Below are positions 32,549 through 36,900 of a stretch of 37,890 bases of DNA, in pieces. Every line of letters starts with the position of its first letter. Position 1 is the stretch's first letter. Below the pieces are notes generated by a model. It saw only the letters and a list, made by a program, of their open reading frames with translations. It was not told where the DNA came from and did no database searches. This DNA is from Chthoniobacter flavus (GTDB taxonomy: Bacteria; Verrucomicrobiota; Verrucomicrobiia; Chthoniobacterales; Terrimicrobiaceae), in assembly GCA_945903555.1 (NCBI GenBank), contig CAMDOJ010000002.1, positions 1 through 37,890 of the forward strand. Direction: 5' to 3'. The position numbers and the translations under genes were made by a program.

Positions 32549-32570
32549 ACGAAAAGCCAAAGCCACTTCG

Positions 32571-32606
32571 AGACGCCGCATACTAACGTGTGCGGCGTCT
32601 TTTTTT
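32571..32606 (+). terminator. Intrinsic terminator after glgP
   Basis: AGACGCCGCA ... TGCGGCGTCT perfect 10-bp stem, followed by TTTTTT. Confidence 0.9.
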
Positions 32607-32765: not shown

Positions 32766-33404
32766 TCACAATTCGACCTCCTCAATTTCTTCCGGGCGCG
32801 CCCACTCTTCGAAAACTTTTTCGAAGTGGGTGACGAGTTGTGAATAGATGTTTGAGGTGATGCGTGTGAAGTGGCGCAGGCTCTCGCGTTCGGCGAATTC
32901 GGCGTTCATCTCATTGTAGCCTGTGGCGATATTACCGAATAAACCCTTGAGCCTGCCCTCTTCGAACTGGCGCACCAACTCGCCCAGAGAGAGGGGAAAT
33001 CGAGACTCGGTGATAGGCAGCGTGAACTGGCCCTCGTATTCATCCTCGATGCGGTAGGAGATGCCTGATGGCCTTGGACAGGCTCGAAGGCTGATCACAT
33101 CGCTTGTCGTAGATTGCAGCCAGATGCGGGCGATCTCCACTTCACCGGGTAGGTAGCCTGGAAGATACTCGCCGCCCATGAATGAGGGGTGGATGCGCCC
33201 AAAACTGCGCCGATCTTCCGTGCCGAGTTCATCCTGAAGCAGCGTTGCATTCAATTTTTCCAGATGCCCGGCATTCCAATAATCGATCACCATCTGGCGA
33301 CGCTTCTCGCCTTTGATATTCTTAAGGATGGCCTTCAGCGGGTCCGAATCATCCCAATAAGATTTTGGCCTGAATATGTAGCGGATTCCTCTGAACTTTT
33401 TCAT
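32766..33404 (-). CDS. Uncharacterised 212-aa protein
   Basis: MKKFRGIRYIFRPKSYWDD...HPSFMGGEYLPGYLPGEVEIARIWLQSTTSDVISLRA...; GGGAGG Shine-Dalgarno before the ATG at 33404; 4-bp ATGA overlap with the upstream ORF. Confidence 0.85.
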   Translation of the reverse strand: MKKFRGIRYIFRPKSYWDDSDPLKAILKNIKGEKRRQMVIDYWNAGHLEKLNATLLQDELGTEDRRSFGRIHPSFMGGEYLPGYLPGEVEIARIWLQSTTSDVISLRACPRPSGISYRIEDEYEGQFTLPITESRFPLSLGELVRQFEEGRLKGLFGNIATGYNEMNAEFAERESLRHFTRITSNIYSQLVTHFEKVFEEWARPEEIEEVEL

Positions 33405-33619
33405 AGGCAGCCTCCCTTCAACGCGCGACGCAGGAGTTGATCGCGCAGTTTGCGGGCCTGCTCGACGCTCGGGGTGCCGAGGCTCAGACGCACCCGGCGC
33501 TTGGTGTAGTCCGGCAGGTGGACGGTGTAGTGGCACCACCAGGTGCCGTGGTTGTTCCAGAGGTGGTGGTCTGGATTGTGCGCGAGAACGCGGATGGATG
33601 GTGTTTCGAGTGTGTTCAT
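33401..33619 (-). CDS. 72-aa protein resembling the arm-type DNA-binding domain of tyrosine integrases
   Basis: GTWWCHYTVHLPDYTKRRVRLSLGTPSVEQARKLRDQLLRRAL resembles integrase arm-binding domains; AAAAGGAG SD before ATG at 33619. Confidence 0.7.
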   Translation of the reverse strand: MNTLETPSIRVLAHNPDHHLWNNHGTWWCHYTVHLPDYTKRRVRLSLGTPSVEQARKLRDQLLRRALKGGCL

Positions 33620-33641
33620 GGTGTGTCTCCTTTTGGGTTTC

Positions 33642-33764
33642 TCACCAGGAATCTCGGGCAATAAAGTCCGAGGAGATTTTGTTGTTCGGGTTCGTCACCC
33701 GCACATCGCTTAGCGTTTCCGCCTTCGCAAACCACCGTGGGATTTCTCCTTCCCCGGTTGGCAC
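33642..33764 (-). CDS. Possible 40-aa small ORF (GTG start) or 3' remnant of a truncated gene
   Basis: Hand translation: M(V)PTGEGEIPRWFAKAETLSDVRVTNPNNKISSDFIARDSW*; ends 22 bp before the 72-aa ORF; below the ORF-track cutoff. Confidence 0.35.
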   Translation of the reverse strand: MPTGEGEIPRWFAKAETLSDVRVTNPNNKISSDFIARDSW

Positions 33765-33966
33765 CCTGACCCGCCTAATGCGGCCACAGGAATTCCTAAT
33801 GCTTTAACTTTTATGCTGAAAAACGGGAACGAATCCAAGCCTGAAATGTGTCATAAAATCCACTCAGCCTGGATCAGCATGAAGAGGTTTTTAACGCAAA
33901 TGCATTGGACTACCTTCCCGTGATTTGCTGATGAATGAATAGTTCCCTTTCAAAGAACAATAGGTA

Positions 33967-36900
33967 TCAGCGGAATTTTTTCGGGAGGAGCTGATTTTTG
34001 CGGAGGGTGACGGGGGTAGCGGAGTTGCGAGGTGCGGCATAGCCCCAGTCGAAGTCTTCATAATTGTCATTGGTGTCGGTAGCCCCAGCGTTCGCACGGA
34101 AGATGGCATCGTAGCGTTCCGGAGAAATGGCTGGGGAGGACCCTTCGTAGGCGTTCGCCGACCCGTAGCCAACGAGGTCGCTGAGTTGAGATAATCCAAG
34201 GGGTGAGGAGATGTTTAGGATGGCGGAGTTTCGCATGAGGGCGACTTTGCCTTGTTTGACAGCGAGGTCGAAGTATCCGGAGGCGTCAGCTTTTGGAAGA
34301 TCGTATTCGAACCGACCGCCGGCAAGCGCCACCAAATAGTAGCCTTTTGCGGGGATGGAACCTTTGAGCGAAATAGCTATCCACCGAGATCCGGATCCGC
34401 CGGCAAGCTGGAGAGTCCATCCATCTAAACGAACGGGTGTCGCATCCGGGTTGTGAAGTTCGATGTAGTCGTGGCTGTAGTCCGACCACCTACGTCCTCC
34501 TCCGGCGTAGATCTGGCTAATCACAACGCGGGTGAGTTGTGTTGTGATGGTGAAGACTGTTGAACTCGTGGTGCTCGTCGTCGCGGTGGCTACTCTTATT
34601 GGTCCAGTAGTGGCTCCAAGGGGGATTGTGGCGCTGATTTGAGTGGCTGAGATGATTTTCCAGACGGAGGCAGTGATGCCGTTAAATTGAACTCCTGTGA
34701 CGCTGGAGAGGTTTGTTCCATTGATCAAAACGCTCGTTCCGACGGATCCGCTCGGTGGAGCGAAAGAGGAAATGGTGGGGGCAGGAAGTGCGGCGAGGAC
34801 GCTCACTGTGGCGGACGCCGAAGTGCCTATCGCACCTTGATTGTCGGTGGCGCGGGCAGTGAGGATATAATTGCCGGCAGCGGTGGGTTTCCACACAATT
34901 GAATACGGAGCTGCGGTAGCGGCGCCAAGTGGGGTTGTGCCGTTGAAGAATTCCACCTTGGAGATGACTCCGACAGCGCCATTTGATGTGAGGTCATCCG
35001 CGTTAGCTGCGAGGGTGAATTGAGCTCCGAGGGTGATGCTGGCTCCGTTGGTGGGTGAGTTGAGACTCACGGTGGGAGCTGGATTCAATGGCGTCGGTGT
35101 GGGGGATGGCGTTGGTGTGGGAGGCGGCGTGATTGTGCCCGAGACACCGGTAATAACGAGTGCGTAGGGTTGCGAGTTTGTAGTGAGTTGGCCTTCCATG
35201 GAAACAGTGGCCGTGTAGGTGCCTGACCTATTTGGATTGGATAAGTAAACTTGTTCTGTGTTGTCGACCCGGTTTTTGCCTGGGGTCGCTGACGCTGACA
35301 TGGCGGCGGCACTCCAGGTCCCCACGAATGGCATGACATAGGGAAAATAAGTGGTGGCTCCATCCGGGCCTGTGATTTTCAAATCTAAATCGTGAACAAC
35401 GTTGGGAGTCCTGCTGTCGGCGGCGGTTTGTGGCGTTCCGGCGGGATCTGTCCAGGAAAGGGTGGCTCGTATGGGGCTGACTCCATCCCACGTGAATGTG
35501 GTCGTTGTCGTTTTAAGTGTGGATGTGATGGCATTCTGAATGATCCGGGGTGCCGTGGGGTTGGCCTTATGCGCGAGAACGATATCCGCAGCGGCTTTCA
35601 GATTAATCAATCCCCAGCCGAACTTGTAGTCGGGACCAGGGTTCCCGAGGTCGTCTGCCGTATGGATGAGGAGCGCTTTGAGAAGGCTGGCGCGGGGGCG
35701 TTGACCGAATGAGTTCGCATAGAGTTGCTGTAGGAGGGCAGCTGAGCCGGCGGCATTGGGCGTTGCCATACTGGTGCCGCTGTAGGTTCCATCGTAGGCG
35801 GAGTCACTGGTTGCAGTGCTGGAGTAAACACTCACTCCATTGGCAACAAGGTCTGGCTTGATGCGTCCGTCGTCAGTGGGCCCCCAGCTTGAGAATGAGC
35901 TCATCGATCCGGATGAGGGATTGCGAACGCCGGCCACGACGGCATCATTCACCGCTCCGATGGTGAGAATGTTTTTTGCGAGCGAATTGAAGGTGATGGA
36001 CTGGTAACCGCCGAGTCCGGTAAGGGAGTCTTGCTCATTGCCTGCGGCCCAAAGCGGGAGGTAATAGGGCATAGCCCAGACGAGGGCATCCACCGTCTGA
36101 GCTTCCTTCTCGTAGCGGCCCATGTCATCGGAGTTCGCGCCGTATCCGTAGGAGTGGTTTGAAAGTGATACGGAAGCGAGGGCAGTCGCCGTGGCTGCGC
36201 CGGTCGCAGTCATTTCAGCGTAATCGTTATCCCAATCGTAGGAATCGATCGTGGATTTTGGTGCCATCCCTTTGGCGTTCGCATCGACTCCGCTGGATGC
36301 GATGGTGCCGGCCACATGTGTCGAATGGTCGTCCAGCGGGGATGTGGCATTCTTTTTTGTGACGCGCCCGGTCAATTCCCTATGAGTGGTTCGGATCGAG
36401 CCAGCATCCCAGACACCGACTTTTACACCGGCGCCATCGAGTCCGTAGGGTGAGGCCTGAAGAAGGTTCGCTCCTGTGGAGATGGCCGCGTTTCGGTTGT
36501 TGGTGGTGCGGTAGAGCGGTTGGTCGCCACGAAAATCGTGGAGGACGGAGACCTTTCCGCCGCCTGCATCGATGCGCACAGGGATTCCGAGTTGGTCAGC
36601 CTTTTCTAGGACACTATCCATGCGGGCCTCCTCGATTTGAGACATTCGAGCTACGACTTTCTCGCGCTCCTGGGGGTTACTCATGTCGGTGCTTTGGAGG
36701 AGTTGAACGACCTCGTTGCTTGTCGGATTCGGATCATTCGCAGGAGCGCTCGATTCTGAGCGGTCCTGGGGAGAATAGGAGGCTTTGTTTTGAGTTGGGT
36801 TTGAGGCGAGCGCATCCGAATCCGTCGAGCGAATTGGGGACGTAGCTTTTATAGCTGACGGTTGAGCGCTCGATTGAGAGGAGTTCAAAGCGTCGTGCGC

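Follow-up and report, generated by a model that had tools for sequence, protein, structure and literature searches.

A probable SAM-I/IV riboswitch operon encoding a putative DNA-binding regulator and a second unannotated protein

Introduction

Two small genes on the minus strand of the window (the whole stretch of 37,890 nucleotides analysed here) make up an operon that is preceded by an RNA switch of the SAM-sensing kind. The reading that we prefer, and to which we give a probability of about 0.7, is that this operon lies under a SAM-I/IV riboswitch and is expressed when SAM is low, its products being a probable DNA-binding regulator of 72 amino acids and a second protein of 212. The architecture of the aptamer, its covariation, the complementary switch elements, the conservation of both proteins and the repeated linkage were all computed directly. 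In the open-access literature we found no published account of the linkage between this RNA, the 72-aa gene and the 212-aa gene.

The locus and its leader

How is the locus arranged? A sequence-only reading of this DNA had reported two minus-strand open reading frames with an ATGA overlap, a Shine–Dalgarno (SD) sequence before each, and a position for the pair between the glgP terminator and a protease gene. All of this is correct (table 1); the protease gene on the other flank is subtilase-like and ends at 33967. While that reading recovered the genes, it overlooked the most informative part of the locus, a structured SAM-I/IV leader (33643–33803) in the roughly 185 nt that lie 5' of the 72-aa gene. 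An HTH-XRE match at 33872–33951 (E = 0.62) was taken as chance.

Purifying selection acts on both reading frames. Among relatives that have both genes G025 is the closest, its 212-aa protein being 87% identical to that of the window; between the two, the 212-aa ORF has dN 0.072 and dS 0.414; for the 72-aa ORF, compared with six relatives, dN is 0.13–0.17 and dS 0.35–0.78.

Table 1. Features of the locus, with window coordinates.
Feature	Position	Strand	Basis or remark
SAM-I/IV riboswitch aptamer (P1, unbroken P2, P3, putative P4, P5, pseudoknot)	33661–33803	(-)	Rfam RF01725, covariation and model R1 match
Pseudoknot strand AGGAGA, P3 loop	33745–33750	(-)	pairs with TCTCCT at 33671–33676
3' pseudoknot strand TCTCCT	33671–33676	(-)	alternative partner possible: SD AGGAGA (33626–33631)
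Apparent scar of lost terminator, TTTATTG	33659–33665	(-)	comparison of window with L036
Anti-P1 element GATTCCTGGTG	33643–33653	(-)	11-bp complement (with G-U) of P1 5' strand CATTAGGAATT
CACCA, start-codon-side arm of sequestering hairpin	33619–33623	(-)	pairs with TGGTG of anti-P1 element
Putative promoter: TTGGAT (33833–33838), 17 nt, CATAAA (33810–33815)	33810–33838	(-)	sequence, and TTG / TATAxAAGT pattern in relatives
Conserved 10-bp promoter-upstream element TTATGACACA, candidate operator	33847–33856	(-)	
SD of 72-aa gene, AAAAGGAGA	33626–33634	(-)	read from sequence
72-aa ORF	33401–33619	(-)	stand-alone integrase-arm/DUF6538-like protein
SD of 212-aa gene, GGGAGG	33411–33416	(-)	read from sequence
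212-aa ORF	32766–33404	(-)	undescribed family; ATGA overlap with 72-aa gene
glgP terminator	32570–32601	(+)	boundary of neighbouring gene

The aptamer

To which class does the leader belong? In a search of 1.5 kb the Rfam model RF01725 matches the window at 33671–33807 with 37.1 bits (E = 5.7e-4), below its curated cut-off of 41.1, whereas leaders of the same gene in relatives score 45.6 (L018/L115), 42.1 (L008/L096) and 42.1 bits (L020). The family assignment is therefore one for the leader set and not for the window copy by itself. SAM-I/IV RNAs are set apart from SAM-I and SAM-IV by an unbroken P2, a P5 that follows P1, and a pseudoknot between the P3 loop and the 3' tail (PMC2864571, PMC6890682). 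P1, a P2 without internal loop and P3 with its conserved core are all present in the leaders; P5 contributes two base pairs after P1, paired in 96.1% of cells, and a P4 hairpin between P3 and P1, which stands outside the counted structure, is visible in individual leaders. The P3 loop, xGGAGA, is complementary to TCTCCx' in the 3' tail across the leaders (90.9% of cells paired); its fixed columns offer little extra covariation, and the flanking pair exchanges among A-U, U-A and C-G.

In an alignment of 38 leaders 94.9% of cells are paired and 13 pairs have changed on both sides, most of the compensatory changes falling in P2. The covariation score of 0.395 drops to 0.135 in shuffles and to no more than 0.08 once the helices are slid. 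A covariance model built in this analysis, model R1, matches the window aptamer. The window RNA thus counts as a slightly divergent representative of an established class of riboswitches.

Is SAM the ligand? Measured against the nucleotides that lie within 5 Å of SAM in SAM-I (PMC6890682), the contact positions are kept in the leaders with the exception of position 45. The window has A there and retains the positions read, while 11 of 55 leaders carry U or G, and in those 11 affinity for the ligand could differ; a further copy in the window's own genome, C190, is of the U45 type. On this pattern of conservation SAM is the probable ligand of the window aptamer. The genes that follow related RNAs support the same ligand, since the RNA stands directly 5' of metK in two G065 contigs, RNA plus 72-aa gene precedes metK in G079 (the two genes overlapping by 4 nt), and RNA plus 72-aa gene leads MoxR–vWA–MetK-like operons in some relatives.

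Switch elements

If P1 forms upon binding of the ligand, with what might its strands pair otherwise? The 5' strand of P1 (CATCAGGAA...) is complementary to a conserved element, TTCCTGGTG, just 5' of the start codon. In the window leader the match extends over 11 bp, between 33643–33653 and 33791–33801, and the pairing appears in the minimum-free-energy fold. Of 68 leaders, 63 show complementarity of at least 7 bp between P1 and anti-P1; shuffled controls averaged 8 and peaked at 14. Compensatory pairs include CATCAGG/CCTGATG, CATCACGA/TCGTGATG (L190), CATTACGA/TCGTAATG (L200) and CATCAAG/CTTGGTG (L085, L090, L093). On the start-codon side, pairing of at least 5 bp is present in 53 of 55 leaders.

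An intrinsic terminator is found in 42 of 55 leaders, and in many of them a second anti-P1 copy lies inside it. The window leader has none. The leader of the relative G019 holds 37 extra nt, a hairpin with a U-run, between two copies of TTTATTG, from which it appears that the window terminator was lost by deletion between these 7-bp repeats. With the 37 nt and their terminator missing, the window would retain the translational layer alone, if the assembly is right.

Promoter and candidate operator

The promoter in table 1 is a putative one, since a sigma-70 scanner returned nothing. Upstream of it, TTATGACACA recurs with at most one mismatch in 80% of 66 leaders, compared with 0.9% of random pieces, and in most leaders the site lies at -51 to -55 or at -63/-64 from the aptamer. 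These two [TC]TATGACACA positions are one helical turn apart, and in three leaders the orientation is reversed. The extended pattern TATGACACA-N8-TTG occurs 30 times in 50 genomes, nearly always at SAM-I/IV leaders, against 3 times for a control read backwards; it is absent from the five congeneric genomes without a 72-aa gene.

Autoregulation by the 72-aa protein would account for this distribution, but inheritance of the promoter from a common ancestor would look much alike. The TATGACACA site also precedes the RNA–212-aa unit of G031, a genome where a search at E<=1e-3 detected no 72-aa gene, and the site may be read by a factor other than the 72-aa protein.

The 72-aa protein

What is the first product of the operon? 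It had been proposed to be the arm-type domain of an integrase. Its Pfam matches are indeed to two N-terminal integrase domains, Arm-DNA-bind_3 (E = 0.0016, 19.0 bits) and DUF6538 (E = 0.0028, 17.7 bits), against a cut-off of 27. Of 20 family members 13 match DUF6538 at E<=0.01, the best at 7.3e-6. The resemblance thus holds, and it is weak throughout, every score lying below the cut-off. An AlphaFold2 model built from a two-sequence input (pTM 0.50) has a beta-beta-beta-alpha core with block pLDDT of about 75–85, and the predicted secondary structure runs E19–23, E26–34, E40–46, H52–67. Foldseek gave no significant match for the model, and profile matches of the family to WRAP designs in the PDB were repeat artefacts in which each repeat added some 3 bits.

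The family consists of stand-alone ORFs of roughly 60–110 aa, in which a catalytic domain is absent. In a phylum-wide sample it was found in 93 of 390 genomes and 46 of 198 genera (55 of 213 genomes of the order), with 1–5 copies per genome, so that the expectation of multiple copies in some genomes was borne out. A gene conserved on its own in 93 of 390 genomes is not the domesticated or decayed integrase fragment that the sequence-only reading had also considered. The amino-acid sequence is highly conserved from family to family; in the examined genomes of genus g47, tentatively Akkermansia-like, it is identical while the upstream DNA varies. There the gene is fixed, single-copy and at one conserved place beside a ribosomal L28-like gene, and it is one of many 72-aa genes that lack the SAM-I/IV RNA, several f8 copies among them; Rfam returned no riboswitch for the leader of a g47-type copy, L202. 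In many f17 genomes the gene is monocistronic under the riboswitch with a convergent neighbour downstream, so that the riboswitch transcript yields no other protein and the 72-aa protein itself is what is regulated. It most probably acts in SAM/methionine homeostasis as a short DNA-binding regulator with a beta-beta-beta-alpha fold, both the DNA binding and the regulatory role being predicted.

Several features of other copies deserve mention. The leaders of L202, L205 and L206 (Akkermansia-like) carry the inverted repeats CTTCAAC...GTTGAAG and GAGGTG...CACCTC, match no Rfam family and are candidate structured RNAs. Extra 72-aa-like copies without riboswitch, in f8 genomes and one viral contig (L056 5896, L064 5887, L085 6073, L091 3948, L178 3004), have GGACAGCGGATGTCC-like inverted repeats around ATG just upstream. 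Several 72-aa proteins (for example L051, L066, L202) end in -AA, the count in the order set being 21 of 66; such C-termini resemble ClpXP degrons, which may mean rapid turnover.

The 212-aa protein

The second product had been said to belong to no nameable family, and we found no usable match for it in Pfam, NCBIfam, PHROGs, PADLOC or the PDB; PDB matches at E>=0.28 were ignored. A single-sequence AlphaFold prediction reached pLDDT 39 and the model was not used. The gene is present in 10 of 213 genomes of the order, to which the phylum sample adds G335, G386 and a stop-containing fragment in G557. In the window, G025, G082, G031, G096 and twice in G386 it lies behind the RNA, in some cases with the 72-aa gene between them and in others without, and an RNA lies near a shorter homologue in G123; the copies in G002, G091 and G335 are not preceded by the RNA. 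On account of this recurrence behind the riboswitch we assign the 212-aa protein to the low-SAM response, of which it would be an effector. In G002 (L177 2465–4588, reverse-complement) the homologue, without riboswitch, has an ARPP-1 (PF20208) gene and a gene for a secreted repeat protein as neighbours.

Linkage and synteny

How tightly are the RNA and the two genes linked? Aptamers stand directly 5' of the 72-aa gene in 68 of 86 cases within the order and 32 of 45 elsewhere, counts that are inflated because model R1 was trained on leaders 5' of 72-aa genes and its matches are biased toward such genes. The independent Rfam model gave 7 matches in the family, all 7 at 72-aa loci. The RNA without a 72-aa gene precedes metK (L143, L144), a ThiS operon (L135, L136) and the 212-aa gene (L139, L148), and each of these three kinds of target turns up elsewhere behind RNA plus 72-aa gene (L056, L078, window). 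In most genomes the 72-aa gene either stands alone in its transcription unit or heads a different operon. The pair itself was found again in G025, G082 and the distant G386, as co-occurrence would have it. Of the two-component module that had been suggested, the coupling of the genes stands; an obligate partnership does not, each gene being found without the other.

The locus is polymorphic for presence and absence, as the comparison of its flanks brought out. We located glgP in 14 other genomes of the genus, and among those with downstream sequence none has the cassette after it. The protease flank of G019 aligns to the window up to 33819, keeping the promoter element, while the aptamer and genes are missing. 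Neither family matched plasmid or phage records, the PADLOC protein models did not match the pair, and viral contigs gave one match for the 72-aa family and none for the 212-aa family. Neither a defensive role nor mobility by phage gained support from these searches.

Other operons were seen behind related RNAs. In L051 6141–10880 and L068 5751–10531 (reverse-complement orientation) a SAM-I/IV RNA and 72-aa gene lead an operon for a MoxR-like AAA protein that scores above the PF20030 cut-off, together with a vWA/DUF2201-like protein and a divergent MetK-like one (TIGR01034, 157.8 of 309.4 bits), possibly an undescribed MetK-containing relative of the MoxR–vWA systems. Outside the class, in f29 and f34 (L237, L240–L244), the RNA precedes an unrelated family of about 150 aa (MIIYPNVPKEVRNWAYCERKI-type) without Pfam match, another unannotated riboswitch target. 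G021 (L146 1–3000) has two SAM-I/IV aptamers in neighbouring transcription units, the one before an 87-aa ORF and the next before a 72-aa gene.

Proposed mechanism and alternatives

How might the switch work? When SAM is plentiful the aptamer would fold, P1 would form and TTCCTGGTG would be freed; its TGGTG arm could then pair with CACCA next to the AUG and block translation, and in most relatives the terminator would stop transcription as well. When SAM is scarce, the 5' strand of P1 would pair with TTCCTGGTG, and in relatives also with the terminator copy. The 72-aa protein would then be made, and with it the 212-aa protein through stop–start coupling at ATGA. The 72-aa protein might in turn act on its own promoter by binding to the conserved TTATGACACA site. 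The direction of switching, off with SAM and on upon its loss, is presumed by analogy with established switches of the SAM-I class.

A more far-reaching reading joins these elements: the 72-aa protein as a new class of stand-alone arm-fold transcription factor that acts as a regulator under SAM starvation in much of the phylum and controls itself through TTATGACACA at helically phased positions 5' of the -35 box, a SAM-I/IV gate with two copies of the switch sequence, and the 212-aa protein as an enzyme or binding protein of a new kind in SAM metabolism. In its entirety we regard this as tentative, with the odds against it.

Might the RNA be a look-alike that keeps a SAM-like architecture and senses a different ligand? 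Position 45 varies, the window scores below the Rfam cut-off, and the targets are unusual in being small proteins instead of methionine biosynthesis genes; however, the remaining contact positions are conserved and related RNAs precede metK in the two G065 contigs, so that we consider a different ligand unlikely. It is quite unlikely, too, that the 72-aa ORF is only a translated leader, coupling the downstream gene to the riboswitch and yielding a product inactive in trans. The ATGA overlap in the window and the 4-nt overlap with metK in G079 would suit such a leader, as would the targets that occur both with the ORF (L056, L078, window) and without it (L143, L136, L139). Against this stand the monocistronic f17 genes with their convergent neighbours, a protein conserved across families and unchanged in g47 despite varying upstream DNA, and a dN/dS well below 1.

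The varied downstream genes, the 1–5 copies per genome, the G019 flank that keeps the promoter element without the cassette and the restriction of the 212-aa gene to 10 of 213 genomes could also be explained if RNA and 72-aa gene were a small mobile or selfish cassette of integrase origin that a complete recombinase mobilises in trans and that inserts before host genes. We think this quite unlikely as well: plasmid and phage records gave no match and viral contigs a single one, the gene is fixed in one copy at one place in genus g47, and inspection, short of a systematic search, brought up no terminal repeats. Small overlapping genes with a patchy distribution are likewise what a defence or toxin–antitoxin module would offer, and among the operons behind related leaders are MoxR ones with a match to the bpMoxR of proposed conflict systems (PMC7159879); but with no PADLOC match, two genes that are not obligate partners and a metabolite riboswitch in control, such a module is highly improbable.

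What follows if the riboswitch-controlled operon is the right reading? The analysis connects a known riboswitch class with two protein families that lack annotation, and about one in four of the genomes sampled in the phylum carries one of these families. Since the riboswitch would govern a probable DNA-binding regulator and not an enzyme or transporter, control by SAM would widen from single operons to a regulon. SAM depletion offers a direct experimental handle on both uncharacterised proteins. The repetition of anti-P1 in the terminator and in the start-codon hairpin makes two-layer control testable, the window being a natural variant without one layer.

Comparison with known systems

The riboswitch class is known; what is new are its targets, a leader design with a repeated anti-P1 element, and the regulatory arrangement. 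The leaders share with RF01725 (the SAM-I-IV-variant of Weinberg et al. 2010, PMC2864571) P1, the unbroken P2, P3, P5, the conserved core and the P3-loop/3'-tail pseudoknot, with a P4 hairpin visible in individual leaders. They depart from the standard in the sub-threshold score of the window copy, in the variability of position 45, in their targets, which are unannotated small proteins, and in the many relatives that have the anti-P1 sequence in both terminator and start-codon hairpin.

With DUF6538 (PF20172) and Arm-DNA-bind_3 (PF13356) the 72-aa protein has in common some 45–50 matched residues and the predicted beta-beta-beta-alpha order. Unlike them it stands alone, without a catalytic domain and below the curated cut-offs, and its family has an invariant core of its own (N15, H18, W21, N23, G25, H34, T39, K40, R42, L47, T49, A55, R59).

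Some of the operons led by RNA and 72-aa gene resemble the MoxR–vWA ternary systems (PF20030; PMC7159879) in their MoxR-like and vWA-like proteins. They differ in a divergent MetK-like third member, MetK receiving no mention in the text of that paper, and no such operon lies in the window. To the methionine regulators of the MetJ and SahR type (PMC4239095) the likeness is one of proposed role only, that of a transcription regulator of SAM/methionine homeostasis. Whereas those regulators bind the metabolite themselves, the 72-aa regulator would instead be made by way of a SAM riboswitch.
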